Positions 37,523 to 59,856 of a stretch of DNA of 64,000 nucleotides are shown here, one piece after another (positions within the stretch are counted from its first letter, which is position 1; each line of letters begins with the position of its first letter). The DNA comes from Gammaproteobacteria bacterium (GTDB lineage: Bacteria; Pseudomonadota; Gammaproteobacteria; Eutrophobiales; Eutrophobiaceae): contig JAJFKL010000032.1 of NCBI GenBank assembly GCA_021773235.1, positions 124,001 through 188,000 on the forward strand. Reading direction: 5' to 3'. The translations under genes and the position numbers were made by a program. The notes under the pieces were generated by a model. The model had not been told where the DNA came from. It worked only from the letters and a program-made list of their open reading frames with translations, and ran no database searches.

Positions 37523-38385
37523 AACTAGCAATAGGTACTGCTCAGTTTGGTTGTGATTATGGAATAGCAAATCAGCACGGGTGTGTTTCTGAAAATGAAG
37601 TCAGAAATATATTGAACTATGCAGAAAACAATAATATTTCTATGTTGGATACAGCAATAGCCTATGGTGAAAGTGAAAGCAAACTTGGTAAATTAGGTGT
37701 GAATGATTGGAATATCGTCACCAAGATAACAATATTGAATAATAGAGAAAAAGATAAAATAGTCTCTGTTAAAGAACAGGTAAATGCTTCTTTGAAAAGG
37801 CTCAAAGTAGATAAATTATACGGGGTTTTATTACATAACCCAGAGTGTTTGTTAGAAAATAATGGTGATGAAATATACTCAATCATGAATGAATTAAAAG
37901 CGTCTGGTATTGTTGAAAATATTGGCATATCTATTTATTCTCCTCTTGAGCTTGACGAGCTCTGTGGTCGATATGAGTTTGGTATTATTCAAGCGCCAAT
38001 AAATATTTTTGATCGAAGAATAATTGAATCTGATTGGCACCAATGTTTGCATAAAAAAGGTATCGAGTTACATGCCCGTTCTGTTTTTTTACAGGGATTG
38101 TTGTTAATGACGGCAGAAAAGCGGCCGAGAATATTTAATAAATGGTCTTCGCTTTGGTCTATTTGGGATGAATGGGTGAAAAATAATGAATTAACGTATT
38201 TGCAAGCATGTTTACGATACGTTTTTTCAATTACTTCAGTCAAAAAGATTGTTATAGGTGTTGATAGTTGTCAACAACTGAAGGAAATTATTGATGCTAT
38301 CGATGGAGAATTGCCAGCGATTCCTAATGAATTGAAATGTGATGATGCTGCATTACTCAATCCATCATTTTGGGAGCATCTTTGA
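37519..38385 (+). CDS. Aldo/keto reductase-family protein of nonulosonate clusters
   Basis: A 288-residue TIM-barrel reductase. It begins LAIGTAQFGCDYGIAN, with MLDTAIAYGESE (the Asp/Tyr catalytic pair), LLHNPECLLE for the catalytic His region and IGISIYSP. It lies between PseC and the cytidylyltransferase, a place where aldo/keto reductase genes are often found in pse-type loci. The reaction there is not established. It starts with TTG overlapping pseC by 4 bases. Confidence 0.82.
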   Translation: MKLAIGTAQFGCDYGIANQHGCVSENEVRNILNYAENNNISMLDTAIAYGESESKLGKLGVNDWNIVTKITILNNREKDKIVSVKEQVNASLKRLKVDKLYGVLLHNPECLLENNGDEIYSIMNELKASGIVENIGISIYSPLELDELCGRYEFGIIQAPINIFDRRIIESDWHQCLHKKGIELHARSVFLQGLLLMTAEKRPRIFNKWSSLWSIWDEWVKNNELTYLQACLRYVFSITSVKKIVIGVDSCQQLKEIIDAIDGELPAIPNELKCDDAALLNPSFWEHL

Positions 38386-40409
38386 ACGTTATTGCTGTTG
38401 TTCAAGCTCGAATGGGCTCTACACGCTACCCCAAGAAGGTGATGGCATGCGTCAATGATGTTCCTTTAATCGAATTGTTGCTTGAGCGTTTATCTAAAGC
38501 AAAATTAGTCGATGAAATAATAGTTGCGACTTCATCTAATGTGAACAATGAACCTTTGGTAAAACATGTAACCAAGCTTGGATGTCGTGTTTTTCAAGGG
38601 GATGAAAATGATGTTCTAGATCGTTATTATCAAGCAGTAAAGTATACTAAGCCTGATGCGATTGTTCGTATAACCGGAGACTGCCCCTTAATTGATCCCG
38701 AGATAGTGGATGAGGTTATTAATGCATTTCTTGATTCACAAGTTGACTATGCGAGCAATATTTACCCTCCTACTTATCCTGATGGTTTGGATGTCGAGGT
38801 TTTTTCATTTACGGCTTTAGAAAAAGCTTGGCGAGACGCTGTACTTCCTTCGGAAAGAGAACATGTCACTTCTTATATCAGTGAAACAGGTCAATTCCAA
38901 ACAGTTAATGTTTCGAATAATGAGGATAATTCTTGTGAGCGATGGACGGTGGATGAACCTGAAGATTTTGAAGTGGTATCTGCAGTGTTCACGCATTTTT
39001 TGCCGAAAGTTGATTTCTCCTGGAAAGAAGTATTACAGTTTAAGAATGAACATCCGGAGAGTTTCCTAGCAAATAAACATATGATACGTAACGAAGGTTC
39101 AGCTATGAGTGAAGGTGCTAAACTTTGGAAACGCGCAAAGAAAGTTATTCCTGGTGGCAATATGTTGCTATCCAAACGTCCTGAGATGTTTCTTCCAGAA
39201 CAATGGCCAAATTACTTTAGTAAGGCGAAAGGCTGTAAGGTTTGGGACCTAGCTGACAGAGAATATATTGATGTCAATATTATGGGGGTAGGGACGAATA
39301 TTCTTGGTTATGGACATCCTGAAGTGGATGCAGCAGTGCAAAGAACGGTCGTACAAGGAAACATGTCGACGTTGAATTGTGCGGAAGAAGTTTATTTAGC
39401 TGAAAAAATAATAGAAATGCACCCTTGGGCACAAATGGTGCGTTTAGCAAGAACTGGTGGTGAAGCAAACGCAATTGCTATAAGAATTGCACGCGCCGCA
39501 ACGGGAAAAGATAAGGTTGCTATTTGTGGTTATCATGGCTGGCATGACTGGTATCTATCTGCGAATTTAAATGATGACAAAAACTTGGATGGTCACTTAC
39601 TTCCGGGACTTGAACCTAAAGGAGTACCTAGAAACCTACAGGGAACGGTCTATCCTTTTGAATACAATGATTACGATACCCTCGAAAAGCTGGTAAACGT
39701 ACATGACATTGGTGTTATTAAAATGGAAGTCTCTCGTAACGAAGGACCTATTAATCAGTTTCTTGAAAAAGTACGGCGGCTAGCGACTGAAAAAAACATT
39801 ATCTTGATGTTTGATGAGTGCACTTCAGGTTTTCGACAAACCTTTGGTGGACTACATAAGCAATATGGCATTGAACCGGATATGGCTATATTCGGCAAGG
39901 CGTTAGGTAATGGTTATGCCATCACCGCCGTTGTTGGTAAAGAGGAAATTATGCAAATTGCCCAGAGTACGTTTATTAGTAGTACTTTCTGGACCGAACG
40001 AATTGGACCTTCAGCGGCATTGAAAACTCTGGAAGTAATGGAACAGACACGTTCATGGGAAAAGATAACGCAAATTGGAAAAGATATTGCTTCCAAATGG
40101 ATGGTATTAGCAGAGAAGCATGAACTTTCGATAGAGACTTATGGCTTGCCTGCCTTAACTGGATTTTCATTTAATAGTTCTAAGGCGTTAGCTTACAAAA
40201 CGCTGATTGCGCAGGAAATGTTATCAAAGGGCTTTTTAGCTGGAACAAATGTATATGTTTGCATCGAACATACCGAAGAGATAATTTCTGCCTATATAGA
40301 AAATCTCGATCCTGTATTTGCGATGATTAAAGAATGCGAAGAAGGTCGAGATGTGATGAGCTTGCTTAATGGTCCGGTATGTCATGATGGTTTTAGGAGA
40401 TTAAATTAA
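38382..40409 (+). CDS. Fusion of PseF/SpsF-type cytidylyltransferase and class III aminotransferase
   Basis: About 675 residues from a TTG at 38382, which overlaps the preceding TGA. Residues 1-230 are a CMP-sugar synthetase-like domain (VVQARMGSTRYPKKV, RITGDCPLIDP, YPDGLDVEVFS). Residues 245-675 are a glutamate-1-semialdehyde-aminotransferase-like enzyme (NIMGVGTNILGYGHP, ARTGGEANAIAIRIAR, MFDECTSGFR), with the PLP lysine K506 in FGKALGNGYAI. An ATG at 39105 preceded by GAAGG could also start the aminotransferase alone. It would activate and aminate a nonulosonic acid or precursor. Confidence 0.88.
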   Translation: MNVIAVVQARMGSTRYPKKVMACVNDVPLIELLLERLSKAKLVDEIIVATSSNVNNEPLVKHVTKLGCRVFQGDENDVLDRYYQAVKYTKPDAIVRITGDCPLIDPEIVDEVINAFLDSQVDYASNIYPPTYPDGLDVEVFSFTALEKAWRDAVLPSEREHVTSYISETGQFQTVNVSNNEDNSCERWTVDEPEDFEVVSAVFTHFLPKVDFSWKEVLQFKNEHPESFLANKHMIRNEGSAMSEGAKLWKRAKKVIPGGNMLLSKRPEMFLPEQWPNYFSKAKGCKVWDLADREYIDVNIMGVGTNILGYGHPEVDAAVQRTVVQGNMSTLNCAEEVYLAEKIIEMHPWAQMVRLARTGGEANAIAIRIARAATGKDKVAICGYHGWHDWYLSANLNDDKNLDGHLLPGLEPKGVPRNLQGTVYPFEYNDYDTLEKLVNVHDIGVIKMEVSRNEGPINQFLEKVRRLATEKNIILMFDECTSGFRQTFGGLHKQYGIEPDMAIFGKALGNGYAITAVVGKEEIMQIAQSTFISSTFWTERIGPSAALKTLEVMEQTRSWEKITQIGKDIASKWMVLAEKHELSIETYGLPALTGFSFNSSKALAYKTLIAQEMLSKGFLAGTNVYVCIEHTEEIISAYIENLDPVFAMIKECEEGRDVMSLLNGPVCHDGFRRLN

Positions 40410-41092: not shown

Positions 41093-42162
41093 GAGTTATT
41101 TTTCGTGTAGATGCATCTGAAAAAATTGGTAATGGTCATTTCTATCGTTGTTTGAGTCTTGCTGAAGGATTAATTGAACGAGGTGCAGAGACGCAGTTTA
41201 TTTGTAAAGACCTGGATAGAAACCTCAATGATCTTTTGAAAGATAAATCGATACCTGTTTTATCGTTGATAAACACGAAAAAAAAAAGCGAGTTGAACAA
41301 CGAAAGTTATGCTGATTGGCTAGGAATATCACAAAAGGAAGACGCAGAAGAAACAATTTGTGCGTTACAAGGGAGTAAGCCTGACTATTTAATAGTCGAC
41401 CATTATGCGCTTGATGCAAAATGGGAAGGACAAATTAAGAAACATGTTAAACGTCTTATTTTAATTGATGATTTGGCAGAGAAACAACATCTTTGTGATA
41501 TTGTCATCAATCAAGGTTACTTTTCAGCCAAGGAAGATTATCTCAAGCTTATTCCTGAAAACTGTCAGTTATTATTAGGGCCGGACTATGTTTTACTTTC
41601 CGCGGCATACAAACAAGCCCTAAAGAAAATGGTTGTGCGACAAGGTAAGCTAGAGCATCTACTGATATTTTTTACAGCAGGAGATGATAATGGAGAAACA
41701 TTAAAAGCGCTTAAAGGTTTAAGTCAAGGATTTAAATTTAGTCATGTGGATGTTGTTGTTGGTAAAAACAATTACGATAGTGATGACATTAAAAATATAT
41801 GTATACATCAAGGTTGGCAGTTTCATTGCCAAATCGATTATATGGCAGAACTCATTTTAGAAGCAGATTTGGTCATTGGAAGTGCAGGTGCAAATAGTTG
41901 GGAGAGGTGCGTCTTGGGGGCGCCAGCATTAGTAACGATAATGGCTGACAATCAACAAGCGAATGCAACTGCATTAGAGAAAATGAATGCCATCGTCTGT
42001 ATTGGTGATTATAAAAGTACAAGTCCTGAGACTTACCGTAATGCCTTGCTGAAAATTAATAATAATAAATTGCAGGCTATGTCCTCTTCAGCGGGAAAAT
42101 TGATTGATACTAATGGTGTCGATCGAATATGTGATTATTTGTTATCTGATATGAAACATTAA
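41089..42162 (+). CDS. pseG: PseG-type UDP-sugar hydrolase
   Basis: A 357-residue GT-B-fold hydrolase. The GTG at 41089 overlaps the previous stop as GTGA and gives MRVIFRVDASEKIGNGHFYRC, with the catalytic H17. LIVDHYALDAKWE, ILIDDLAEKQHLCDIVINQG and SAGANSWERC are also PseG-like. PseG releases 2,4-diacetamido-2,4,6-trideoxy-altrose from UDP before condensation with PEP. It supplies the NeuB-like synthase immediately downstream. Confidence 0.88.
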   Translation: MRVIFRVDASEKIGNGHFYRCLSLAEGLIERGAETQFICKDLDRNLNDLLKDKSIPVLSLINTKKKSELNNESYADWLGISQKEDAEETICALQGSKPDYLIVDHYALDAKWEGQIKKHVKRLILIDDLAEKQHLCDIVINQGYFSAKEDYLKLIPENCQLLLGPDYVLLSAAYKQALKKMVVRQGKLEHLLIFFTAGDDNGETLKALKGLSQGFKFSHVDVVVGKNNYDSDDIKNICIHQGWQFHCQIDYMAELILEADLVIGSAGANSWERCVLGAPALVTIMADNQQANATALEKMNAIVCIGDYKSTSPETYRNALLKINNNKLQAMSSSAGKLIDTNGVDRICDYLLSDMKH

Positions 42163-42167
42163 ATATA

Positions 42168-43226
42168 ATGTCATTTTCTAAAACTATTAATATCGGTGGT
42201 TATGAAATAATACCTACCGGTGCCTGTTTCATCGCAGCAGAGATTGGTATAAATCATAATGGTGATATGGGTCTTGCAAAAAAGGCAATTGATGCAGCTA
42301 AAGAAGCAGGAGCGACCAGCGTAAAGTTTCAAAACTATAAAACAGAAGATTTTGTACAGAATAAAGAATTGGTATATACCTATAAAAATGCAGGTAAGTC
42401 GATTACTGAATCACAATGGGAAATGTTTAAACGGTGTGAACTATCAATAGAGCAACTCATCGAATTAAAGAAATACAGTGACAGATTAGGTATTTTATTC
42501 TTCACGACGCCGACTAGTAAGAAAGGTATTTCAGACCTTCAAAAAATAGGCGCACCATTAATAAAAAATGGTTCCGACTTCCTCACTAATCTAGAATTGA
42601 TTAGTGAGATGGCAAAGACAGGTTTGCCGACCGTGTTGTCTACCGGGATGGCAACAGAGGATGAAATTGAAGATGCGGTCAATATATTTAAGAAAGCAGG
42701 GGGCAGGGAGCTTGTTTTGTTGCATTGTACATCCAGTTACCCAACCCCGGTTGAAGAAGTTCATCTAAATAAAATAATAACTTTGGCAGAGACTTTTGAC
42801 TGTTTGTCAGGGTTTAGTGATCATAGTGAAGGAACTACAGCAGCTATTGGAGCAAGAATAATGGGTGCATGTTTCATTGAAAAGCATTTTACTTTGGATA
42901 AAACGCTTCCAGGTCCAGACCATTATTTTTCTGCTGATCCGAAAGAGTTTAAAAAGATGATTGATAATGTGCGTTATGTTGAAGTAGCAATGGGAGACCG
43001 TGAGTTAGGTCCTTCACTTTCAGAACAAGAAAGTCGCTTACAATTTCGGTTGTCATGTATTGCCGCTAAAGATTTACCTGCTGGAACAAAATTAAAAAAA
43101 GAGCACATAAGGTTTGGTCGGCCAGGAACGGGGATTTTGCCAAAGAATGTAGAACTGTTAATTAATCGTGTTTTGAAAAAGAATCTTACTCAAAACAAGC
43201 CCTTTAACTTGGATGAATTAATATGA
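42168..43226 (+). CDS. NeuB-family nonulosonic acid synthase
   Basis: A 352-residue enzyme that condenses PEP with a hexosamine. The barrel domain (1-280) has IAAEIGINHNGDM, SVKFQNYKTEDFV, LIKNGSDFLTN and GFSDHSEGTTAAIGA; the C-terminal SAF/antifreeze-like domain (about 285-352) has IAAKDLPAGTKLKKEHI. The motifs resemble the NeuB/LegI branch more than PseI, although its neighbours are PseC and PseG types. Product is therefore a sialic-, legionaminic- or pseudaminic-like acid. Confidence 0.9.
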   Translation: MSFSKTINIGGYEIIPTGACFIAAEIGINHNGDMGLAKKAIDAAKEAGATSVKFQNYKTEDFVQNKELVYTYKNAGKSITESQWEMFKRCELSIEQLIELKKYSDRLGILFFTTPTSKKGISDLQKIGAPLIKNGSDFLTNLELISEMAKTGLPTVLSTGMATEDEIEDAVNIFKKAGGRELVLLHCTSSYPTPVEEVHLNKIITLAETFDCLSGFSDHSEGTTAAIGARIMGACFIEKHFTLDKTLPGPDHYFSADPKEFKKMIDNVRYVEVAMGDRELGPSLSEQESRLQFRLSCIAAKDLPAGTKLKKEHIRFGRPGTGILPKNVELLINRVLKKNLTQNKPFNLDELI

Positions 43227-48902: not shown

Positions 48903-50555
48903 ATGATAAAATCTATTGTGTCTGAATATTTGAAAAGTATTGCACGAAAAAAACTGCGTAAAGCTATGCGTGGTTATAGATATTTAAAAAATGAAAATAA
49001 GTTGGATGAAATTTCCAACATAAAAAGAGATGTAGCTGCGCATAAAATAATTGCTGAGAATTTATACCCGTCAAAATTTATTTTTGGTGCAGGATTAGCG
49101 AATGCTGAAATTGTTATTAGACAATATCTACTCGAGCGTTTTCGATATATTAAGTTTAATGAAGAACTCCTTTCTTATTTTGGAGGAAAGGCTTCTATCA
49201 TAAACTATCCAATGCCGAAAGAATGGCAAGAGCTTCTGATTAATAAAGGCTTTATTGTAAACAAAAGAATGTGCTCCTTAAAATGGAATTTATATATTCT
49301 CATGTACTTTTTTAAAGGTGTGCTAACTGTTCTTAAGAGTATAGTCTTAGTAGTTAAATCTAATTTAGATGATTCATTAAAATTCTCGGGTAAACACACA
49401 TTTTTTATTGGACTGTCAGCTGGGAATCTTCCACAGAACCAAGAACAGAAGAAAAGCTATGACATTGTTTCATGGTATGAGCAATGGTCAGGTAGAGTTA
49501 AAGATATTGATGCAATTTGTCATGATGTTAAAGATGTACCTATAGGGAGTATTAATGAATTGTCTGTTGTGAGTCTGTCTTCACCTATTCCTTATGATTT
49601 AACTATTGGAAAAACATTTGATTATATAATATGGGCGCTAAGAGCATGTTGGATATCCTTAACTGATATATTTAAGGGTAAATGGTATCACGCACTTATT
49701 TTAAGTGAAGCCGCGATTGCTGCGATTATTCGTATACAAAATGGGAATAAACTTGCTTCTGAGTATATGTTTGGAACTACGGGAGTCATCTATCGACCGC
49801 TCTGGACATATGAAGCTGAAAAATTAGGAGCAAAAATATCACTGTATCTTTATTCGATTAATTCGGGAGGGTGGAAAACAAAAAAAGGGTATCCCGTCAC
49901 AGCTCCAGGATGGAAGCCAATGACATGGCAATATTATTTAGTTTGGGATGAGTATCAAGCAGATTTCGTGCGTCGCGAAGTAGGTGAGTCTGCGGGTGTT
50001 TTAACTGTAGGACCAATATGGTTCCATGAGAGTGAAAATGAAATAGACCCATGCCCAGTAAATTTCATAGCTGTTTTTGATGTGCAACCCTTTAGGGATT
50101 CACGTTATCAATTATTAGGGGTTCCGGAAGAATACTATACTCCTGTAGTTGCGAATAAATTTTTAGAAGATATACATTCAGTTGCATCAAAACTTAATGT
50201 TAGTGTTGCGTTTAAACGGAAGCGCGATATAGGAAAGTTATTGCATCCAAAATATAATAAATTTCTGGATGAATTATGTAAGGCGGAAGATTTTATCTTG
50301 GTTCCTTCCGAGACAAGTGCATTACGAGTTATTAAAAAATGTTCAGTAGTTATATCAATGCCATTTAGTTCGCCTGCTGTGCAAGCTAGAGAATTAGGTA
50401 AACCCTCAATATTTTATGATCCTTTTGCGTCTTTACAAAAAGATGATCGATCTGCGCATGGAATAGAAATAATATCAGGCGTTAAAAACCTGGAGGAATG
50501 GCTATTTAAAACCTACTGCAATATAACGAAACAAGAAAAGAATTCCATAAACTAG
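48903..50555 (+). CDS. Polysaccharide biosynthesis PFTS-motif protein
   Basis: A 550-residue protein with a basic N-terminus and a hydrophobic stretch near residues 135-155. The C-terminal PFSSPAVQARELGKPSIFYD followed by HGIEIISG is a PFSS variant of the PFTS motif that names this family of carbohydrate-cluster proteins. FGTTGVIYRPLWTYEAEKLGA and VTAPGWKPMTWQYYLVWD are further conserved-looking blocks. The architecture suggests a GT-B-like glycosyltransferase, unproven. Confidence 0.72.
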   Translation: MIKSIVSEYLKSIARKKLRKAMRGYRYLKNENKLDEISNIKRDVAAHKIIAENLYPSKFIFGAGLANAEIVIRQYLLERFRYIKFNEELLSYFGGKASIINYPMPKEWQELLINKGFIVNKRMCSLKWNLYILMYFFKGVLTVLKSIVLVVKSNLDDSLKFSGKHTFFIGLSAGNLPQNQEQKKSYDIVSWYEQWSGRVKDIDAICHDVKDVPIGSINELSVVSLSSPIPYDLTIGKTFDYIIWALRACWISLTDIFKGKWYHALILSEAAIAAIIRIQNGNKLASEYMFGTTGVIYRPLWTYEAEKLGAKISLYLYSINSGGWKTKKGYPVTAPGWKPMTWQYYLVWDEYQADFVRREVGESAGVLTVGPIWFHESENEIDPCPVNFIAVFDVQPFRDSRYQLLGVPEEYYTPVVANKFLEDIHSVASKLNVSVAFKRKRDIGKLLHPKYNKFLDELCKAEDFILVPSETSALRVIKKCSVVISMPFSSPAVQARELGKPSIFYDPFASLQKDDRSAHGIEIISGVKNLEEWLFKTYCNITKQEKNSIN

Positions 50556-50630: not shown

Positions 50631-51317
50631 ATGAATGGAAAAAATATAATTAAATTTTCTGCACAAAAAGACCTTTTAAATTACGCAATTAATCGCTTAG
50701 AAAAAACGTCCTATGAGGCAATTAAGTTGAAAGGAATATATAATGTTGTCCTTTCTGGCGGGGCAACACCGAAATTTATTTATTCTGAATTGACGAATAT
50801 TAGTACTGATTGGGATAAATGGTGTTTTTGGTTTGGTGATGAAAGATGTTTTGATATGGAACATAATGATTCAAACCATAACATGGTGAAAAAGGCCCTT
50901 TTTCAACATGTTCCAATACCTTCTTGTAATATCCGGCGCATAAAAGTGGAACTAGGAATAGAGCGAGCTGTAAAAGAATATGGAAAGGACATAGAAAGTG
51001 TGGACATATTTGATCAAGTTTTACTTGGATTAGGAGAAGATGGTCACACTGCTAGTCTTTTCCCAGAGCATGATATTGGAGTTGATGAAAAAGCAGATGA
51101 TGTGCTTGCTGTATATAATTCCCCTAAGCCACCTAATGAAAGAGTCAGTCTTTCTGTGAAACGGTTAAATCGATCACGTGAGATTATATTCATTTGTACA
51201 GGAAAAAATAAAAAAAAAGCAATTGAAAAATTCAAGAATAATAGTGATATACCTGCGAATAAGATTAAAGGATTAGAACGTACTACTTTACTTTATTGCC
51301 CTGAAAATATTATATAA
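50631..51317 (+). CDS. 6-phosphogluconolactonase-like protein
   Basis: A 228-residue protein of the NagB/6PGL fold. VVLSGGATPKFIYSEL, FGDERCFDMEHNDSNHNM and LGLGEDGHTASLFPEH are the classical 6-phosphogluconolactonase motifs. The normal enzyme hydrolyses 6-phosphoglucono-lactone in the pentose phosphate pathway. No zwf or edd is nearby; the neighbours are a hydroxyacid dehydrogenase, an SDR, a HAD phosphatase and an aldolase. It may open a different sugar lactone. Confidence 0.88.
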   Translation: MNGKNIIKFSAQKDLLNYAINRLEKTSYEAIKLKGIYNVVLSGGATPKFIYSELTNISTDWDKWCFWFGDERCFDMEHNDSNHNMVKKALFQHVPIPSCNIRRIKVELGIERAVKEYGKDIESVDIFDQVLLGLGEDGHTASLFPEHDIGVDEKADDVLAVYNSPKPPNERVSLSVKRLNRSREIIFICTGKNKKKAIEKFKNNSDIPANKIKGLERTTLLYCPENII

Positions 51318-51327
51318 GACTATAAAA

Positions 51328-52257
51328 ATGGAAAAAATATTAATTACAACATCTAGCTTTAATCTAGATAATTTTGACGATTTAGCGTTGATTGAAGAAA
51401 GAGGGTATGAAATTTCATTAAATCCATATGGAAAGCGTTTAACAGAGCCTCAAATAGCTGGAATGCTTGATGAAAATGTTGTTGCTATAATTGCTGGTTT
51501 AGAACCATTAAATAAAAATGTATTACAAAACGCACCAAACCTTAAAGTTATTTCTCGATGTGGGATTGGTATGGATAACGTTGATCTTGAGTATGCTGAC
51601 TTAAATGGGATTAGTGTATTTAATACGCCTGATGCACCCAGTAAAGCTGTTGCAGAATTAACGCTTGCACATATTTTTTCTTTGTCCAGAAAAATAGTAG
51701 AGGCAGGTATAAATATAAAAAGTGGTAAATGGAAGCCATTGATGGGCAGGCTGATCTCTCAACAAACATTAGGTGTGATTGGATATGGGCGCATTGGTAA
51801 GTTAGTAGCTCAATCATTAAGTATGTTAGGGACTAAAGTGCTTGTGCATGATAAAGAAAATATTGAGAAAGCATGTGATTTTGAAATCGTTGGATTAAAT
51901 TATCTATTGAAAAATAGTGATATTGTTTCCTTGCATATGCCTTATACCACAGAAACTCATAATATGATTGATGCTGATTCTTTAGCATTATTTAAAAAAG
52001 ATGCATTGCTTATTAATGTTGCACGAGGTGGACTTGTTGATGAAGCGGCATTATATGAAGCATTAAAAAATGATAATCTTGGCGGTGCTGCTATAGATTG
52101 TTTTGCAGTAGAACCATATGAAGGAAAGTTGCTTGAGTTGAATAATGTTCAAGTAACATCACATATGGGCTCCTATGCAATTGAATCAAGATCAATGATG
52201 GAGGCAGAAGCCTGTTCTGAATTAGTTAAAGGAATGAAAAAACATGGATTGTTATAG
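51328..52257 (+). CDS. D-2-hydroxyacid dehydrogenase (phosphoglycerate dehydrogenase-like)
   Basis: A 309-residue NAD-dependent dehydrogenase. ISRCGIGMDNVDLEYA, LGVIGYGRIGKLVAQSL (GxGxxG), LINVARGGLVDEAALYEAL (active-site Arg) and VTSHMGSYAIESR (His) are family motifs. It lacks the ACT domain of SerA. It could oxidise or reduce a 2-hydroxy/2-keto sugar acid in this module. Confidence 0.87.
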   Translation: MEKILITTSSFNLDNFDDLALIEERGYEISLNPYGKRLTEPQIAGMLDENVVAIIAGLEPLNKNVLQNAPNLKVISRCGIGMDNVDLEYADLNGISVFNTPDAPSKAVAELTLAHIFSLSRKIVEAGINIKSGKWKPLMGRLISQQTLGVIGYGRIGKLVAQSLSMLGTKVLVHDKENIEKACDFEIVGLNYLLKNSDIVSLHMPYTTETHNMIDADSLALFKKDALLINVARGGLVDEAALYEALKNDNLGGAAIDCFAVEPYEGKLLELNNVQVTSHMGSYAIESRSMMEAEACSELVKGMKKHGLL

Positions 52258-52295
52258 TGTAATAATGAATATACTCAAACAATATATAAATAACT

Positions 52296-53183
52296 ATGTC
52301 AATTAAACAAATACTTGTTATTGGTGGTTCAGGATTTTTAGGAAGCCATGTGGCGGATGTTTTGTCAGATGCAGGCTATAAAGTCAGGATTCTAGATAAG
52401 GTCGATTCTCCTTATAAGAGAAAAGATCAGGAAATGATTGTCGAAGATTTTATGAGTTTAGAAGTTTTGGATGATGCTATAAGCGATTGTGATGTTGTTT
52501 ACAATTTTGCAGCTATTGCTGACTTGGATATTGCTTTGAAATTGCCAGTTGAAACAGTAAGAGTGAATGTTTTAGGTAATGCGCAAGTATTAGACGCATG
52601 TGTAAAGCATAATATACAACGATATATCTTCGCCAGCACAGTCTATGTTCATAGTAGAGAGGGTGGGTTTTATAGATGCAGTAAATTCGCTGCAGAGAAT
52701 TATGTAGAAGAATACTCTCAAGCATTTAATCTTAATTATACTGTATTGCGGTATGGCTCTTTATATGGGCCGAGATCTGATGGACACAATGGTGTTTGGA
52801 GGATCATTAATCGTGCTATAGAAAATAATGAAGTCAGTTATGAAGGAAGTATAGAGGCGATGCGTGAATATATTCACGTTGTTGATGCAGCAGTAGCAAG
52901 TGTTGCTGCCTTAAATGATGAGTTTTGTAATCAGCATGTCGTATTAACAGGACAAGAACCAATGCGGGTTATGGATTTTTTGAAAATGATAGCAGAAATT
53001 CTTGGTTTGAATCAGGATGTTAGATTCATAGAAAGTAAACAATCTGGACATTATATACGTACACCTTACGCGTATCAGGCTAAGTTTGGCCGTAAATATG
53101 TTCCTTCTATGCATGTCGATCTAGGGCAGGGGTTGTTGGAATTAATTGCTGAGATAAAACAAAATGGTAATCAAGAGTCATGA
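52296..53183 (+). CDS. NAD-dependent epimerase/dehydratase (SDR)
   Basis: A 295-residue SDR with VIGGSGFLGSHVADVL and the YxxxK pair in YRCSKFAAENY. FASTVYVHS and LRYGSLYGPRSDGHNGVW resemble UDP-sugar epimerases. The FkbM gene overlaps its stop by 4 bases. It may generate or epimerise the aldehyde precursor of this module. Confidence 0.82.
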   Translation: MSIKQILVIGGSGFLGSHVADVLSDAGYKVRILDKVDSPYKRKDQEMIVEDFMSLEVLDDAISDCDVVYNFAAIADLDIALKLPVETVRVNVLGNAQVLDACVKHNIQRYIFASTVYVHSREGGFYRCSKFAAENYVEEYSQAFNLNYTVLRYGSLYGPRSDGHNGVWRIINRAIENNEVSYEGSIEAMREYIHVVDAAVASVAALNDEFCNQHVVLTGQEPMRVMDFLKMIAEILGLNQDVRFIESKQSGHYIRTPYAYQAKFGRKYVPSMHVDLGQGLLELIAEIKQNGNQES

Positions 53184-54040
53184 TTAAAAAATGTTTAATA
53201 ACTATTAAGCATGTGTTGAAGCTAACTCTAGATAAGATTGTGTTCTTCAGTCGAAAAACCAGAGTTGGTCAATATATACACTATATAATCGTGACCCTCT
53301 CGATGAATGAAGTGAAGGAAGTTACACACGACGGAATAGACTTAATATTATCAGTTCCAAATCGTTTATGTCTTTGGCGAGCTAATACATTTTCCACCAA
53401 AGAACCTGAAACGCTCGCATGGATAGATTCATTGCCAGAAGATTCAACGTTTTGGGATATAGGTGCAAACGTAGGCTTATATTCATTATATGCAGCCAAA
53501 AAAAGGAATATGCAGGTTTGGTCATTTGAACCATCAGTATTTAATCTTGAAATACTTGCTCGTAATATATATTTAAATAAGCTCACAATGAATATCTGTA
53601 TTCTACCTTTTGCTTTGAGTGACGAAAACGGAAGTAGTAAAATGCATTTAACTACAACCGAATGGGGCGGAGCTCTATCAACATTTGGTAAAACATTTGG
53701 TTGGGATGGTAAAGAAATTCGTCAAACTTTTGAATATAAAACTTACGGTATAAAAGCAGATGATGTTGCAAATATACTTTCCATACCAATACCGGAATTC
53801 ATAAAAATGGATGTAGATGGACTTGAGCATTTTATTTTAAAAGGTGGCACGAATGTTCTGAAGAACATCAAGGGAATATTGATAGAAGTAAATGATGATT
53901 TTACAGAACAAGCAGATGATTGTGAAAAATTATTGACTGAAGCAGGATTGATTTTAAAAGAAAAATCACATTCTGATATTATTGCTTCGTCAACTACAGG
54001 ATTTCAAAATACATACAATCAGATTTGGATACGGCCGTGA
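53180..54040 (+). CDS. FkbM-family methyltransferase
   Basis: A 286-residue protein whose methyltransferase region has FWDIGANVGLYSLYAAKKRN (motif I), VWSFEPSVFNLEILARNI, and IKMDVDGLEHFILKGG, the FkbM signature. An N-terminal extension of about 50 residues is basic. O-methylates a hydroxyl, probably on a sugar. Overlap with the neighbours indicates coupled translation. Confidence 0.85.
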   Translation: MIKKCLITIKHVLKLTLDKIVFFSRKTRVGQYIHYIIVTLSMNEVKEVTHDGIDLILSVPNRLCLWRANTFSTKEPETLAWIDSLPEDSTFWDIGANVGLYSLYAAKKRNMQVWSFEPSVFNLEILARNIYLNKLTMNICILPFALSDENGSSKMHLTTTEWGGALSTFGKTFGWDGKEIRQTFEYKTYGIKADDVANILSIPIPEFIKMDVDGLEHFILKGGTNVLKNIKGILIEVNDDFTEQADDCEKLLTEAGLILKEKSHSDIIASSTTGFQNTYNQIWIRP

Positions 54041-54681
54041 ATGCACATGAAGAAATTAAAAATGCTAAATTGATATTTTGGGATTTTGATGGGGTAATTA
54101 AAGATTCTGTCGATGTTAAAACAAAAGCGTTTATGCAGTTGTTTGAATCTTATGGATCAACAATAGTTGAAAAAGTGAAAATCCATCATGAGGCTAATGG
54201 AGGTATGTCTAGGTATAAAAAGATACCTTTATACATGGACTGGGCAGAAGAACCCTATGATCAAGATTTATTAGATTGTTTATACAGTAAATTCAGTGAT
54301 TTGGTATTGAATAGCGTCATAGCATCTCCGTGGGTGCCCGGTGCGGAACAATATATTCGAGAAAACACATGTCAACAGGATTATGTGCTCGTATCTGCAA
54401 CGCCAGATGATGAACTTTGTATAATTCTTGAAGAACTTGATATATATAAACATTTTTCTGGAATATTCGGCGCATCTTTAAGCAAGAAAAATGCGATTAA
54501 AAAAGTACTAAAAGAAAGAAATATAAAATCATTAGATTGCATCATGGTGGGTGATGCAACTGCTGACATGGAAGCTGCAAAAGAAAACAAGGTGAAATTT
54601 GTACTAAGAAAACATAGTTCTAATGCAGATGTATTCAATAATTCAGATGTTCTAACAATCGAAAATTTTAATACTTTATGA
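54037..54681 (+). CDS. HAD-superfamily phosphatase
   Basis: About 214 residues from a GTG overlapping the FkbM stop (GTGA); a TTG at 54025 is an alternative. LIFWDFDGVIKDSVDVKTKA is HAD motif I with cap domain after it, VLVSATPDDEL motif II, KKNAIKKVL motif III lysine and CIMVGDATADMEAAKEN motif IV. It resembles phosphoglycolate or beta-phosphoglucomutase-type HADs. In context it could dephosphorylate the product of the adjacent aldolase. Confidence 0.84.
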   Translation: MNAHEEIKNAKLIFWDFDGVIKDSVDVKTKAFMQLFESYGSTIVEKVKIHHEANGGMSRYKKIPLYMDWAEEPYDQDLLDCLYSKFSDLVLNSVIASPWVPGAEQYIRENTCQQDYVLVSATPDDELCIILEELDIYKHFSGIFGASLSKKNAIKKVLKERNIKSLDCIMVGDATADMEAAKENKVKFVLRKHSSNADVFNNSDVLTIENFNTL

Positions 54682-55448
54682 ATCGAAACGATAAAATAAA
54701 TGCTATCAGGTCTTCCTTGTCAAACGGAAAGCCATCGATAGGTAGCTGGATGCAAATTCCTAATTCTTCAGTCGCTGAGATTATGGGGCAAGCTGGATAT
54801 GATTGGGTTGCTGTTGATCTTGAACATGGCTCAGTTTGTGTACATCAACTCCCAAATATATTTCGTGCAATTGAACTCGGTGACACATTGCCATTAGCAC
54901 GGCTTGCTAATGGTCACGCAAAGGAATGTAAGCAAGTATTAGATGCAGGAGCAGGTGGGGTTATTGTTCCAATGATTGAAAGTGCAGAGCAACTTATTCA
55001 AGTGCGTGATGCATGCCGTTGGCCTCCTGCTGGGAAACGAGGGGTAGGATTTTCTCGAGCTAATCTATTTGGTAAACACTTCGAAGATTATACCAAAGAA
55101 GCACAATCTCCATTATTAGTGGCCATGATTGAAAATATAAGTGCCATCGAAAATCTTGAAGAAATTCTTGCTGTAGATGGGCTCGATGCAATATTTATTG
55201 GACCTTATGACCTCTCAGCATCTATGGGCCTTACTGGGAAGTTTGAGGATTTTGAATTCTTATCAGCAATGGAAAAGATACATAACCTATGTAAAAAGTA
55301 CAAAGTTCCTGGTGGAATTCATGTGGTGTCTCCTGATCCGGATAAATTGAAAAAGTGTATCGCTGAGGGATACAAATTTATAGCATATTCGATTGATGCA
55401 GTGATCCTTCATGAAAATTCATCATTACCATCGATTATAGGAAAATAA
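54678..55448 (+). CDS. HpcH/HpaI-family class II aldolase
   Basis: A 256-residue metal-dependent aldolase. H50 in DLEHG, R75 in LARLANG, E152 in MIENI and D178 in GPYDLS correspond to the catalytic His, Arg and metal-binding Glu and Asp of HpaI. Family members condense or cleave pyruvate with an aldehyde, giving 2-keto-3-deoxy or 4-hydroxy-2-keto acids. Next to a HAD phosphatase and a KdsB-like CMP transferase, it is well placed to build a keto-sugar acid. Confidence 0.88.
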   Translation: MNRNDKINAIRSSLSNGKPSIGSWMQIPNSSVAEIMGQAGYDWVAVDLEHGSVCVHQLPNIFRAIELGDTLPLARLANGHAKECKQVLDAGAGGVIVPMIESAEQLIQVRDACRWPPAGKRGVGFSRANLFGKHFEDYTKEAQSPLLVAMIENISAIENLEEILAVDGLDAIFIGPYDLSASMGLTGKFEDFEFLSAMEKIHNLCKKYKVPGGIHVVSPDPDKLKKCIAEGYKFIAYSIDAVILHENSSLPSIIGK

Positions 55449-55451
55449 CTA

Positions 55452-56195
55452 ATGGAGAATGTAGGTCAATCAAAACAGCGAAATACAAAATACAAAGATA
55501 AATTTAACCGTGAGCGACTTCTACAAGAGCTCACTGTTAATAGTAAGCCATTAATTTTTGATATTGGTGCTCATCATGGTGAAAGCGTGAACTATTTTAA
55601 AAATATTCTTCCCGATGCTAATATTTATTCTTTTGAACCTGACCCTGATTCATTTTCCATATTGACATCTAAAAATGTAAAAGAAGTTTTGTATTTTAAT
55701 CTAGCACTGTCAGATAAAGATGGTAAAGAGACTTTTTATAGGAATAATATTTCTCATACAAACAGTTTACTAAAAGTGAATATTAGCAGCAAAGATTCAA
55801 TTGGCATTTCACAGGCAGCTATAGAAAATGATGCCCAATATTTTGATTCGTTTAATAATGAAATTAGTGTCGATACAATGCGGCTTGACAGTTTTATAAA
55901 AGAACATTCCATAAACAAAATAGATATTCTAAAAATCGACGTTCAAGGTGCCGAATATCGAGTGTTATGTGGTGGAAATGCAGCATTGGCAAAGACGAAA
56001 GTAGTAGTTATGGAATTAAGTTTTTTTGATTATTACGAACATCAAACTACTTTTCTAGATGTTGAAAAAATACTTGTTCCATTAGGGTTTCGTTTATTCA
56101 GTATCAGTGAAATTTCGAATAACCCTATGAATGGGCGAACAGATTGGGCAGAAGTAATATATACAAAAGTTGACATAGGCAATGGGTATGCCTGA
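55452..56195 (+). CDS. FkbM-family methyltransferase (second copy)
   Basis: A 247-residue FkbM-type enzyme: LIFDIGAHHGESVNYFKN (motif I), IYSFEPDPDSFSIL, IDILKIDVQGAEYRVLCGG. It lacks the long N-terminal extension of the copy at 53180. It starts 3 bases after the aldolase stop. Likely O-methylates a sugar of this module. Confidence 0.85.
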   Translation: MENVGQSKQRNTKYKDKFNRERLLQELTVNSKPLIFDIGAHHGESVNYFKNILPDANIYSFEPDPDSFSILTSKNVKEVLYFNLALSDKDGKETFYRNNISHTNSLLKVNISSKDSIGISQAAIENDAQYFDSFNNEISVDTMRLDSFIKEHSINKIDILKIDVQGAEYRVLCGGNAALAKTKVVVMELSFFDYYEHQTTFLDVEKILVPLGFRLFSISEISNNPMNGRTDWAEVIYTKVDIGNGYA

Positions 56196-56198
56196 CTA

Positions 56199-57176
56199 AT
56201 GAAAGAAGAAGAAATACGCCCAGAAAAGATATTTAACAAATACCTTCAGCTAGCAAAAAATGATATTAAGAAATATTTTAAAGTTGCAAAAAGAGAACCT
56301 ATAACTTGCCCTGCATGTGATAGAAGTGGTGAGTATGCATTCACTAAGAATGGATTTATCTACGAAGAATGCCATGAATGCCTAACATTGTTTGTGAGTC
56401 CAAGACCTGATGCCGAATCATTTTTTGAATTCTACGAAAAATCGGATTCTGTGAATTATTGGGCTTCAACCTTCTATAAAGAAACTGCAGAAGCTCGACG
56501 GGATAAAATCTGGAAACCTAAAGCAAAAATGATAAATGATATTATCAAACAGCATGGAGCAATGTCATATGAAATAATTGATATCGGTGGTGGCTTTGGA
56601 ATGTTTTCTCAAGAATATGAAAAAGAATTTCAAGAAAAGGTGACAGTTATCGAACCAGGTCACGCATTAGCCGCTGCATGTCGTGAGAAAGGAATTGTGG
56701 TGATTCAAAACTTTCTAGAAGATATTAAAGCAGAACAATTAAGCTCGCGTCCGAAAATATTCGTTAGTTTTGAATTGTTTGAACATCTTCATAGCCCACA
56801 GAACTTTTTAAAAAATTTACTATACCTGATGAAATCAGGTGATTTATTTGTTTTTACGACACTTTCTGGTGTTGGTGTCGATATTCAAGCCCTTCAGAAA
56901 CATTCGAAATCAGTGTCTCCACCTCACCATATCAATTTTTTCAATCCAAAGTCTGCTAGCATATTACTAAAAAATACCGGGTTTGATGTGTTAGATGTAA
57001 GAACACCTGGAAAATTAGATATAGACATACTTACTAATAATCTGAATAAGATAAAAGATAAGTTTTGGCATTCATTTATAGTCCAATCCACTGAAGAGGA
57101 AAAAGAAAATATGCAAAAATTTATTTCAGATAATGGGTGGAGTTCTCATATGCTAGTTGTATGTAAAAAACCATGA
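56199..57176 (+). CDS. Methyltransferase with N-terminal zinc ribbon
   Basis: A 325-residue protein. A zinc ribbon near residues 35-65 has CPACDR and CHECLTLFVSPRP. The SAM domain follows with IIDIGGGFGMFSQEY and FVSFELFEHLHSPQNFLKNL, then PPHHINFFNPKSASILL. The type is frequent in surface polysaccharide clusters. The KdsB-like gene overlaps its stop by 4 bases. Confidence 0.83.
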   Translation: MKEEEIRPEKIFNKYLQLAKNDIKKYFKVAKREPITCPACDRSGEYAFTKNGFIYEECHECLTLFVSPRPDAESFFEFYEKSDSVNYWASTFYKETAEARRDKIWKPKAKMINDIIKQHGAMSYEIIDIGGGFGMFSQEYEKEFQEKVTVIEPGHALAAACREKGIVVIQNFLEDIKAEQLSSRPKIFVSFELFEHLHSPQNFLKNLLYLMKSGDLFVFTTLSGVGVDIQALQKHSKSVSPPHHINFFNPKSASILLKNTGFDVLDVRTPGKLDIDILTNNLNKIKDKFWHSFIVQSTEEEKENMQKFISDNGWSSHMLVVCKKP

Positions 57177-57925
57177 ATGACAATCATACAAAGAAAATTC
57201 TTGCTGTAATTCCAGCAAGAATGGGAAGTAGCAGGTTCCCTGGAAAACCTATGGCACTAATTAATGGCAAGCCAATGATCGGGCATGTTTATGAGCGTGT
57301 GTCTCAGTCTTCCGAATTAGATATTACTGCTGTCGCTACTTGCGATTGCGAAATATTTAATTATATTGAATCAATTGGTGGCGTTGCCGTTATGACTAGC
57401 GCTAAACATGAGCGAGCATCAGATCGATGTGCAGAGGCACTAATTAAATTAGAAAATAATAATAATACCACTTATGACATTGTGGTAATGGTGCAAGGTG
57501 ACGAGCCTATGACACACCCAGAAATGATCTCTGAAGCTATTAAACCTATGATTGATGATGAAAGTATTCAAATTGTAAATTTATTAGGAGAAATAGATGA
57601 CGTATTTGAATTTGAAGATAGAAATTGTATAAAGGTAGTTTGCGATTTGGAAAATAACGCATTGTTTTTTTCGCGTGAGCCAATACCCACAAGATCAAAA
57701 GTAAATAATATCACTATGCAGAAACAAGTATGTATCATTCCTTTTCGAAGAAATTTTCTTTTGAAATATAATGATCTGAAGCCTACTCCACTTGAAGTAG
57801 CTGAATCAGTAGACATGATGAGAGTTCTTGAACATGGCTACAAAGTGAAAATGGCACCAACAAAACATAAAACATATGCAGTGGACACGCCAGAAGATTT
57901 GAAAAAGGTTGAAAAATACATTTGA
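57173..57925 (+). CDS. KdsB-like CMP-ketosugar-acid synthetase
   Basis: A 250-residue cytidylyltransferase. IPARMGSSRFPGKPMALING is the CTP-binding loop, followed by ERASDRCAEAL (the KdsB TSxRxSxR-like region), VVMVQGDEPMTHPEM and YAVDTPEDLKKVE. KdsB activates Kdo as CMP-Kdo. Being in this operon and diverged from housekeeping KdsB, it probably activates the product of the aldolase/phosphatase pair upstream. Confidence 0.85.
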   Translation: MNDNHTKKILAVIPARMGSSRFPGKPMALINGKPMIGHVYERVSQSSELDITAVATCDCEIFNYIESIGGVAVMTSAKHERASDRCAEALIKLENNNNTTYDIVVMVQGDEPMTHPEMISEAIKPMIDDESIQIVNLLGEIDDVFEFEDRNCIKVVCDLENNALFFSREPIPTRSKVNNITMQKQVCIIPFRRNFLLKYNDLKPTPLEVAESVDMMRVLEHGYKVKMAPTKHKTYAVDTPEDLKKVEKYI

Positions 57926-57954
57926 GCTCTTCAATAATTTGTGAAGTTTGATTG

Positions 57955-59856
57955 GTGAAAGCAGAAATAAAAAAAAATGTTTTTCTTATCTGGGACTCAG
58001 GAAATGTTCCTTCTTCAAAAAGACAAAAAGTGTTTATTTGGAATAATATTCATCATGAATATGACCCATCCTATATTTCTATTCCAAAATTAGTAGATGA
58101 AAATGCTGAGAAACTGAAGTCAAGATATCTGGAGTGGATATATGATTTAGGTGAGTCCAATGTAGCGGGCAAGAAAGTAATAGACCACCTCGAAGTGCGT
58201 AAAGGATTTAGTTATTGGTGGATGACATCAATAGCTCAAAAATTTAATGCATCTGACTCTTCCGAAGTAAATAATGTAATTAAATTACTGCAATTTGAAT
58301 CATTAGTTAACAATAACCCGCCTTCATCTATTGAGCTAGTTACAGAAAACAAAAGACTCATTTTAGTGCTTAAGGATTATTGCGAACGACGTAAATTAGA
58401 CTTTAATTATTCTTTAATTACAAAGCCGATAGAAAAAGAACCTATTGTCAAAGCTATATATAAAGCAATGCCTTATTATTTTCAGGCTTTTATATATTTT
58501 ATATGGACTATTATTAATAAATTACCTTATTTACTCAAATTTAAAAAAAGCAGTAACTCTCCTGAGTTTAAAATCTGTTTTATTGATGTATTTAATCATT
58601 TAGATGAGAAATCTATAGAGACGGGTAAATTTATATCTAATTATTGGACTATTTTAGCTGAAAAATTATTTTCTTCGAAAAATAAAATAACTTGGAATCA
58701 TAACTACACCGGTTCAAAGTCATTTCCAAATATAGGCTGTGCATCAAAATTAAATAAAAAATTTAATGAAACAGGCGCAAGCATGCAAGAGCACTATATT
58801 ATTGATGAATATTTAAATATATTTGTTTTATTAAAAATGGTTCGAGATTATTTTAAAATAAATTTAAAAATATTTAGAGATGAACAGTTTAAAAAACTAT
58901 TTCATGTGAATGATTCTTCTATTTGTTTATGGTATCTTTTTTGCGATGAATGGCATGATTCGATTAAAGGCAGAGGTGCCATAGTTAATTTATTGAAGCT
59001 TGCGCTTTTTGAATATTATTTTTCAACGTTCAAGAAGCAAAAAGTAGGTGTTTATGTTCAGGAAAATCAACCATGGGAAATGGCGTTGGTTTACGCATGG
59101 AAGATGAATGGGCATGAAAAACTAATTGGCGTTCCGCATACTACAGTTCGATTTTGGGATTTGCGATATTTTTATGATCCGAAAACCTATACTAATGGGT
59201 CGTTAAATAAATTACCGACACCTGATTTTATTGCTGTTAATGGACCTGTAGCTAAGAAGATATATGCTGACAATGGATTTCCAAAAACTAGTTTAGTAGA
59301 AGCTGAGGCTCTTAGGTACTTTCATTTAAATAAAAAAATCAGTAATTCAAATACTGCCACTAAGAAAAATAATGAAGTCACTGTTTTGATTAGCGGAGAC
59401 TTTCTTTTATCAACCACGCATGTGATGTTGAACATGTTGTCTACTGTTTGCGAAAATTCAAATATTAATTTAAATTTAATTTTTAAGCCTCATCCTGGGC
59501 AACATGTAAATCTTGAAAAGTATTCAGATTTAAATATATCTGTGTCAAATGACTCGTTAAGTAATTTATTCGAGATATGTGATGTTGTGTTTTCTAGTAA
59601 TATAACGTCAGTAGCAATAGATGCCTATTATCAGCAATTGCCGCTAATCCAAATCAATGATAGAAACGGCTTTAATATGAGTCCTTTGAGAAATATGAAG
59701 GATGTTATATATGTAAATAATAGCTCAGAGTTTAAAAAAGCATTGTTCAGCTTTGAAAAAAAGACTGAACAAAAAGAACGTGATGCGAATGAATATTTTT
59801 TTCTCAATAAAGACTTGCCTAAGTGGGAAAAAATATTGGATATTAACTTATTATAA
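57955..59856 (+). CDS. LIC13510-type surface carbohydrate biosynthesis protein
   Basis: About 633 residues from a GTG at 57955 (a TTG at 57952 is possible). VFLIWDSGNVPSSKRQKVFI at the N-terminus, YVQENQPWEMALVYAWK, then a PHTTVRFWDLRYFYDP block and FKPHPGQHVNLEKY are landmarks of the TIGR04326-type family described from Leptospira O-antigen loci. The C-terminal half looks GT-B-like. Two hydrophobic stretches lie near 165-195. Probably a transferase for the acidic sugar activated just upstream (inference). Confidence 0.76.
   Translation: MKAEIKKNVFLIWDSGNVPSSKRQKVFIWNNIHHEYDPSYISIPKLVDENAEKLKSRYLEWIYDLGESNVAGKKVIDHLEVRKGFSYWWMTSIAQKFNASDSSEVNNVIKLLQFESLVNNNPPSSIELVTENKRLILVLKDYCERRKLDFNYSLITKPIEKEPIVKAIYKAMPYYFQAFIYFIWTIINKLPYLLKFKKSSNSPEFKICFIDVFNHLDEKSIETGKFISNYWTILAEKLFSSKNKITWNHNYTGSKSFPNIGCASKLNKKFNETGASMQEHYIIDEYLNIFVLLKMVRDYFKINLKIFRDEQFKKLFHVNDSSICLWYLFCDEWHDSIKGRGAIVNLLKLALFEYYFSTFKKQKVGVYVQENQPWEMALVYAWKMNGHEKLIGVPHTTVRFWDLRYFYDPKTYTNGSLNKLPTPDFIAVNGPVAKKIYADNGFPKTSLVEAEALRYFHLNKKISNSNTATKKNNEVTVLISGDFLLSTTHVMLNMLSTVCENSNINLNLIFKPHPGQHVNLEKYSDLNISVSNDSLSNLFEICDVVFSSNITSVAIDAYYQQLPLIQINDRNGFNMSPLRNMKDVIYVNNSSEFKKALFSFEKKTEQKERDANEYFFLNKDLPKWEKILDINLL

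Follow-up and report, generated by a model that had tools for sequence, protein, structure and literature searches.

To our knowledge, the characterized bacterial 2-keto sugar acids that are activated with cytidine monophosphate (CMP) are made by phosphoenolpyruvate (PEP)-dependent synthases. KdsA is the PEP synthase of the 3-deoxy-D-manno-oct-2-ulosonic acid (Kdo) pathway, KdsD-KdsA-KdsC-KdsB, and NeuB, PseI or LegI is that of the nonulosonate pathways. Here we analyzed a 64,000-nucleotide stretch of contig JAJFKL010000032.1 (the window), part of a gammaproteobacterial genome (G000) of 2.87 Mb in 50 contigs that is 80.9% complete. A block of nine genes at positions 50631-57925 is best read as encoding an undescribed route in which an aldolase would lead to a CMP-activated 2-ulosonic acid that is not Kdo. 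As in the Kdo pathway, three enzymes would act in series: one that forms a C-C bond, a phosphatase, and a transferase of the KdsB family that uses cytidine triphosphate (CTP). Unlike the Kdo pathway, the module has an HpaI-type aldolase in place of KdsA, a phosphatase of the haloacid dehalogenase family (HAD-IA) in place of KdsC, and, in addition, a short-chain dehydrogenase/reductase (SDR), a D-2-hydroxyacid dehydrogenase (2HADH) and a 6-phosphogluconolactonase-like protein (PGL). The module would share with the nonulosonate pathways a 2-keto sugar acid that is then activated with CMP, and it too lies in surface-polysaccharide loci; some of its relatives carry a NeuA-like transferase. However, the HpaI form of the module has a KdsB-type and not a NeuA-type transferase, and no NeuB relative was found in the stretches read around three compact cassettes (L015, L019 and L020).

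If this reading is true, an aldolase that uses pyruvate or hydroxypyruvate would be a second solution for making CMP-activated 2-keto sugar acids. The module is not described in the literature matches listed, as far as their titles and abstract openings go and with most subscription journals outside the coverage, nor in the available portions of PMC3087551, PMC3149649, PMC7717453, PMC12058783, PMC2901514, PMC13171606 and PMC11766843.

A preliminary description of this DNA had reported a run of consecutive same-strand genes, and the listing of open reading frames (ORFs) in the window bore this out: nine ORFs, all on the + strand, fill the block. The protein families named there also held for all nine proteins, by profile matches to Pfam, TIGRFAM or NCBIfam. 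In order, the genes encode PGL, which would provide an optional lactonase step (50631..51317; PF01182; TIGR01198 at 174.5 bits, cut-off 124.45); a SerA-like 2HADH (51328..52257; PF00389/PF02826); an extended SDR of the NAD-dependent epimerase/dehydratase family (52296..53183; PF01370); a first FkbM-type methyltransferase (53180..54040; PF05050/TIGR01444); the HAD-IA phosphatase, candidate for the dephosphorylation step (54025..54681; PF13419); the HpaI-type class II aldolase, candidate for the C-C bond-forming step (54678..55448; PF03328); a second FkbM-type methyltransferase (55452..56195; PF05050); a class I methyltransferase (56199..57176; PF13489); and a KdsB-like CMP-sugar synthetase of a separate clade (57173..57925; PF02348, with NF009905 and NF003952 over cut-off). 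The three methyltransferases are classed as accessory. The genes had been called mostly overlapping, which was generous: overlaps of 4-16 bases occur at four of the eight junctions, and the other four have gaps of 3-38 bases.

The KdsB-like protein falls narrowly under the TIGR00466 equivalog (154.2 versus 155.2 bits). A second, strong KdsB was found in the same genome with PF02348 (C15:33779-34414, 213.5 bits), as was KdsA (C10:61190-61957, 414.6 bits, cut-off 314). Because this housekeeping KdsB exists, the window protein is not the only copy in the genome, which would have told against a special role. Next comes its place in a KdsB tree of 40 rows (48 KdsB-type ORFs, less nine duplicates, plus one Leisingera sequence), to which 23 of 59 nitrosomonad loci were offered and which leaves the KdsB-like proteins of L021 and L022 outside. 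The 32 module rows lie on one side of a branch with support 98/97, and the window copy thus departs from the housekeeping clade; the seven housekeeping rows lie on one side of another branch (98/95). Five genomes (G000, G338, G370, G374 and G375) have one KdsB of each kind. Several branches are long, and finer placement is therefore unsure. The separate clade and the second KdsB in the genome led us to reject the idea that the window protein is the housekeeping copy.

We then compared 32 KdsB-like rows with nine KdsB or KpsU rows, using E. coli KdsB numbering. The CTP and metal residues R10, K19, Q98, D100 and D235 are invariant in 32/32 and 9/9 rows, a point of likeness to the Kdo pathway, and R157 is kept in every row except one of KdsB. 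The sugar side is switched: H181 is Q in all 32 KdsB-like rows, G183 is C in 32, Y185 is I in 31, E210 is D in 31 and Q211 is M in 32. Y185 presumably touches the sugar. The metal-binding residues of KdsB are given as Q98, D100 and D235, with Q98 also contacting the sugar, in the available part of PMC2901514. The accessible text of PMC12058783 lists Lys74, Gln98, Arg157, His185, Glu214 and Gln215 as active-site residues in a KdsB model built on 3DUV; of these, His185, Glu214 and Gln215 would correspond to H181, E210 and Q211 of the E. coli enzyme. The KpsU/KdsB pairs of CMP-Kdo synthetases for capsule and lipopolysaccharide likewise add a second family member to the housekeeping KdsB, but at H181, Y185, E210 and Q211 KpsU has the same residues as KdsB and the window protein does not. 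Given the kept CTP and metal residues and the switched sugar-side residues, the natural reading of these sequences is that the protein would still use CTP, with its sugar pocket altered. The sugar of the module is probably one other than Kdo.

The four aldolase residues singled out in the preliminary description, H50, R75, E152 and D178, are all present in the window protein, in 16/16 module aldolases and in 8/8 other HpaI aldolases; D47 is also identical in all 24 aligned rows. Y177, beside D178, occurs in 16/16 module rows versus 0/8 of the others, which have A, G, S or N there. (Of the five nitrosomonad rows chosen for this alignment, the ORF caller missed that of L178.) A tree of the 24 rows places the module proteins on one side and the eight other HpaI proteins, from plasmids, on the other, with moderate support (81/88). 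The window protein scores 170 bits (TIGR02311), 147, 139 and 133 bits against equivalog models, and the cut-offs of the HpaI/YfaU/GarL models, at 369-441, are not reached. Hence, the module aldolase shares family and active-site residues with the catabolic 2-keto-3-deoxy acid aldolases HpaI, YfaU and GarL, but differs from them in its scores below the equivalog cut-offs, its side of the tree, its Y177 and its place beside a CMP-transferase. Its profile also matches a solved chain named hydroxyketoacid aldolase, an enzyme that uses hydroxypyruvate.

The remaining enzymes keep conserved positions as well. D20, D22, K154, G176-D177 and D181 are invariant in 7/7 aligned HAD proteins, S114, Y126 and K130 in 6/6 SDR proteins, and G152, G154, G157, R233, E262 and H279 in 6/6 2HADH proteins. 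The SDR scores higher with sugar-nucleotide epimerase/dehydratase models than with the SDR-type glucose-6-phosphate dehydrogenase model, and its best matches among solved structures are epimerases. The 2HADH profile best matches phosphoglycerate dehydrogenase among solved structures, with a probable 2-ketogluconate reductase among the relatives; the gene is present in 14 of 20 loci mapped by tblastn and in 59/59 Nitrosomonadaceae loci. PGL occurs in the window, L015, L016, L020 and L023 on the 20-locus map, adjoining the module in L015, L016 and L020 and in 22/59 Nitrosomonadaceae loci, and a PF04199 cyclase occurs in L014, L028 and L030. The two were found together in none of the 20 mapped loci; they may be alternative lactonases. 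The earlier scheme had left the 2HADH, the SDR and the lactonase-like protein without a function, and here it fell short, for an SDR of this type accompanies the aldolase and the KdsB-like protein in the relatives read. It had also proposed a step of O-methylation. Two methyltransferases beside the HpaI and KdsB-like genes do recur in place in L013, where the second FkbM protein has a 54% identical counterpart at the same position and the class I methyltransferase a 57% identical neighbor, but they look accessory. Relatives of the first FkbM protein are present in part of the module loci on the map, not in all.

The co-occurrence search that had been suggested showed HpaI, HAD and a non-housekeeping KdsB-like protein to be a conserved unit well beyond the window's genome. 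KdsB-like, HpaI, SDR and HAD genes, often with a SerA-like dehydrogenase, stand together in other Gammaproteobacteria, Desulfovibrio, Nitrospirota and Bacteroidota. The order is 2HADH-SDR-x-HAD-HpaI-FkbM-methyltransferase-KdsB-like, then TIGR04326, in G338; KdsB-like-HpaI-2HADH-SDR-HAD-PGL in G323; and 2HADH-SDR-HAD-HpaI-PGL with no adjacent KdsB-like gene in G016. That the block is peculiar to the window's genome was rejected, as the same set was found in relatives of the class, in named relatives and in Nitrosomonadaceae. An SDR-profile scan of species genomes gave at least 80 loci, at least 14 of them at 40-61% identity and the others listed at 32% or less. The closer orthologues belong to Nitrosomonadaceae (three), SAR86, Desulfovibrio (two), Magnetococcales, Omnitrophota (two), Anaerolineales, Magnetomicrobium (Nitrospirota), Bacteroidota, Nanopelagicales and Desulfamplus. 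In 14 named loci whose stretches were read with tblastn, a HAD of this type was present in 13, 2HADH in 8, KdsB-like in 8 and HpaI in 7; four had a NeuA-like transferase whose nearest counterpart is the one in L014. HpaI was found in 7/8 named loci with a KdsB-like gene versus 0/6 without (one-sided Fisher test, 0.0023), and over all 20 loci in 10/11 with versus 2/9 without (0.0032); these tests treat the loci as independent, and some loci share a family or genus. HpaI without a KdsB-like gene was seen in two loci, those of Acuticoccus and G016. KdsA is over its cut-off in 6 of 11 genomes searched; these six, which have the module or part of it, are G000, G338, G016, G370, G374 and G375.

Matches to the HAD also occur in 18 plasmid records, of which three were read. 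The Acuticoccus plasmid has HpaI, a NeuA-like transferase, 2HADH, HAD and SDR in a row. The Leisingera plasmid (L011:7631-10633) encodes an "aldolase catalytic domain-containing" protein, then a KdsB relative, then a HAD relative; this aldolase is of another kind, the annotated stretch lists no 2HADH, and the SDR genes it lists are GDP-fucose genes. The triple is possibly another aldolase-based ulosonate set. The Azospirillum B510 plasmid has neither the module nor the aldolase-KdsB-HAD triple.

A sister form was seen in L014, L023, L024, L025 and L029: all five carry a radical SAM/SPASM protein along with the SDR and HAD, and no HpaI lies in the stretches read. All but L025 have a NeuA-like transferase, and L024, L025 and L029 have a HisC-like aminotransferase.

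The module is most widespread in Nitrosomonadaceae, the family of G323, of which we sampled 61 genomes, 51 of them with at least 90% completeness and at most 5% contamination. (The sample includes N. multiformis; its stretch L202 equals L019 over 16,001/16,001 bases.) The module HpaI is present in 59/61 genomes at 66-100% identity, including all 51 near-complete ones; it is split in two pieces in G415 and missing from G398 (89% complete) and G406 (74% complete). The same 59 genomes have a PF02348 match of 147-175 bits. Second matches are at most 136 bits, and the 136-bit one groups with the module proteins. For G323, Nitrosospira multiformis Nl18 (L019) and a Nitrosomonas metagenome-assembled genome (MAG; L020), no PF02348 match besides the module KdsB-like protein exceeds 74 bits. 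The order KdsB-like-HpaI-2HADH-SDR-HAD is kept in 58/59 loci, G415 with its split HpaI counted, over spans of 3,857-4,311 bases; the 59th locus is a 4-kb contig holding KdsB-like, HpaI and 2HADH. Among 100 genomes of the order at large that are at least 90% complete, the KdsB-like protein has matches of 72-100% in three, all Nitrosomonadaceae, and of 32-41% in 92, with none in five.

KdsA is over its cut-off in 0/61 Nitrosomonadaceae genomes. Weaker matches to its profile occur in 51/61 (best 111 bits versus 314) and look like 3-deoxy-D-arabino-heptulosonate 7-phosphate synthases, lying in open frames of at least 343 amino acids. WaaA (PF04413) was found in 0/61, even at E 0.001, and LpxC (PF03331) in 0/61; KdsD (TIGR00393) is over its cut-off in 0/61, with 57 weak matches of at most 56 bits versus 203.7. 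Of 14 named control genomes, 4, 3, 4 and 3 were over the cut-offs in the searches for KdsA, WaaA, LpxC and KdsD. The module thus differs from the Kdo pathway not only in its switched sugar-side residues but also in occurring where KdsA, KdsD and WaaA went undetected. Opiyo et al. 2010 (PMC3087551), in its available part, gives lpxK as the only lipid A gene of N. europaea and lpxA as the only one of N. multiformis. What is added here is how far this pattern extends across the family sample, and the module. Its KdsB-like protein is the best KdsB-type match in 59/61 members of a family without detected KdsA, KdsD, WaaA or LpxC. We wondered if the Nitrosomonadaceae operon might supply the first sugar acid of a glycan standing in for Kdo-lipid A in the outer membrane, the window bacterium using the same kind of sugar in an extra surface antigen. 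We hold this only tentatively and think it rather unlikely; if true, an aldolase route to CMP-ulosonates would be a mainstay of the whole ammonia-oxidizer family. The module is in any case a testable handle on the outer-membrane cover of these ecologically important ammonia oxidizers.

A divergently transcribed, uncharacterized protein of about 430-450 amino acids lies upstream of the module in 53/59 Nitrosomonadaceae loci (for example, L015:3973-5256, L019:5785-7134 and L020:2243-3529). It is a candidate transferase. Its matches to sequences of solved structures were only at E 0.21 or worse, and its model, built from two sequences, had a mean predicted local distance difference test score (pLDDT) of 46.7, too poor for a structure search. 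The L015 copy is weakly like the BFO_1060 family glycosyltransferase (21 bits, below cut-off). Besides its standard operon, the Nitrosomonadaceae MAG SP263 has a second and more distant KdsB-like/HpaI-like pair (L017:14472-15997; 45% and 30% identical to the window proteins).

From the observed gene content and order, the separate KdsB clade, the catalytic residues, the sugar-side switches and the presence of the module where KdsA was not found, we infer every reaction, the order of the steps and the product. The HpaI-type aldolase would condense pyruvate or hydroxypyruvate, as the 2-keto acid, with a phosphorylated aldehyde, the job that KdsA and NeuB do with PEP. The HAD would take off the phosphate in a KdsC-like role, and the divergent KdsB-like enzyme would use CTP to activate the free 2-keto sugar acid. 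The SDR, the 2HADH and, where present, PGL or the cyclase would supply the acceptor or the donor, or else modify the product. Glycosyltransfer, for which the TIGR04326 protein is a candidate, would follow and, in the window and L013, methylation too, with the FkbM-type and class I methyltransferases decorating the product in the window's lineage. The earlier scheme likewise had pyruvate and a phosphorylated aldehyde as presumed substrates and a ulosonic acid as presumed product. We give this sequence of aldol condensation, dephosphorylation and CMP activation somewhat better than an even chance.

Several findings weigh against it. Close to home the distribution is patchy: the HAD reaches E <= 1e-20 in 5 of 369 genomes of the class, the window's own counted, and its match is absent from G235, the single other genome of the window's genus in that sample. 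G119, of the window's family, has a NeuA-like variant, 2HADH-cyclase-HAD-SDR-NeuA-like, without HpaI. L014, L023, L024, L026 and L029 likewise have SDR, HAD and a NeuA-like gene, with 2HADH in three of the five and no HpaI in the stretch read. As such a variant exists without HpaI, the SDR, HAD and 2HADH are not tied to the aldolase. L018 has a KdsB-like gene without HpaI, on a contig that ends 3 kb on; L016 has HpaI with no adjacent KdsB-like gene; and 2HADH was not found in the stretches read of L021, L022 and L027. One of the seven aldolases counted above, that of L017, shares only 30% identity with the window protein. Loci were selected through their SDR or HAD, so co-occurrence with the gene used for selection is by construction. 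Conserved order within one family may partly reflect descent. Finally, the HAD shows similarity, under the cut-offs, to models of phosphoglycolate phosphatase and beta-phosphoglucomutase, and we take it not to be of the KdsC type.

Perhaps hydroxypyruvate is the donor? The 2HADH would then oxidize 3-phosphoglycerate or glycerate, the HAD would free hydroxypyruvate, and HpaI would build from it a 3-hydroxylated 2-ulosonic acid for the KdsB-like enzyme to activate. The phosphoglycerate dehydrogenase match of the 2HADH, the hydroxyketoacid aldolase match of HpaI and sugar-side residues unlike those of KdsB all suit this version. Yet L021, L022 and L027 have HpaI, KdsB-like, SDR and HAD with no 2HADH in the stretch read, though a SerA encoded elsewhere in those genomes could serve; in Leisingera, where the annotation shows no 2HADH close by, a HAD relative neighbors KdsB and an aldolase; and the SDR and PGL are left without a role. 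We consider this version unlikely. An oxidative chemistry strikes us as improbable. In that scheme the SDR would convert an aldose phosphate to a lactone, PGL or the cyclase would open it, the 2HADH would oxidize C2, the HAD would dephosphorylate and the transferase would activate a 2-keto aldonate, with the aldolase secondary, for instance resetting C3/C4. That PGL and the PF04199 cyclase each occur in several loci, and together in none of the 20 mapped, fits this scheme, as do the 2-ketogluconate reductase relative of the 2HADH and the existence of loci without HpaI. However, HpaI goes with KdsB-like in 10/11 loci and in 59/59 Nitrosomonadaceae loci, the SDR scores favor sugar-nucleotide epimerase and dehydratase models over the SDR-type glucose-6-phosphate dehydrogenase model, and the best solved matches of the SDR are epimerases.

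The lack of KdsA over cut-off throughout the Nitrosomonadaceae sample, where a KdsB relative is kept, could also point to Kdo made without KdsA: the aldolase would join arabinose-5-phosphate and pyruvate to Kdo-8-phosphate, the HAD would stand in for KdsC and the KdsB-like enzyme would yield CMP-Kdo. But KdsD, the source of arabinose-5-phosphate, and WaaA are each at 0/61 there, the sugar-side residues are switched across the KdsB-like clade, and six genomes with the module or part of it also carry KdsA. A Kdo product is thus very improbable, and we rejected it on the WaaA and KdsD counts and the switched residues. Standing apart from housekeeping KdsB and from the Kdo pathway lowers the case that the module makes Kdo, not the case that it works like a CMP-ulosonate pathway. 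Lastly, the KdsB-like protein might serve a NeuB-type synthase encoded upstream, HpaI being an unrelated catabolic enzyme caught in the region. The NeuB-type gene does end 7.4 kb ahead of the block, 11.5 kb from HpaI, but a cytidylyltransferase fusion lies closer to it, HpaI directly neighbors KdsB-like in L015, L019 and L020, whose stretches as read showed no relative of the window's NeuB, and HpaI and KdsB-like occur together in 59 Nitrosomonadaceae genomes. We find this hardly credible, and that pairing led us to reject service to the upstream NeuB alone.

The block is embedded in a long run of surface-polysaccharide-type genes, most of them named by eye. Directly 3' of the KdsB-like gene, in the window as in L013, lies a gene for a TIGR04326 surface carbohydrate protein (57952..59856, + strand; 470.6 bits, cut-off 250), a candidate GT-B glycosyltransferase. 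Its profile matched sequences of solved structures only at E 0.21 or worse. Its structural model is of moderate quality (mean pLDDT 62.9, predicted template modeling score 0.64), and its Foldseek matches include the GT-B proteins NeuC, MurG and BshA (best E 4.6e-8, with a query-based TM of 0.37). The protein is a candidate transferase for the module product.

The NeuB-type synthase gene (42168..43226, + strand) scores 340 bits with TIGR03569, below the cut-off of 399.65. The earlier statement that no KdsA or NeuB lies in the block is right for the nine genes and holds for that narrow block only. Further upstream is a cytidylyltransferase fused to a glutamate-1-semialdehyde-aminotransferase-like domain (38370..40409, + strand; PF02348, 107 bits; NF004856, 243 bits, below the cut-off of 486), the likely partner of the NeuB-type synthase. 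Positions 38370-44524 look like a second CMP-sugar set, separate from the block. The synthase in it scores under the PseI cut-off as well as the NeuB cut-off, and a PIG-L-type ORF and a PseG-like ORF, both named by eye, lie between the fusion gene and the NeuB-type gene. Just 5' of the block, at 48903-50555, is a gene for a TIGR04417 PFTS-motif polysaccharide protein (334.5 bits, cut-off 100).

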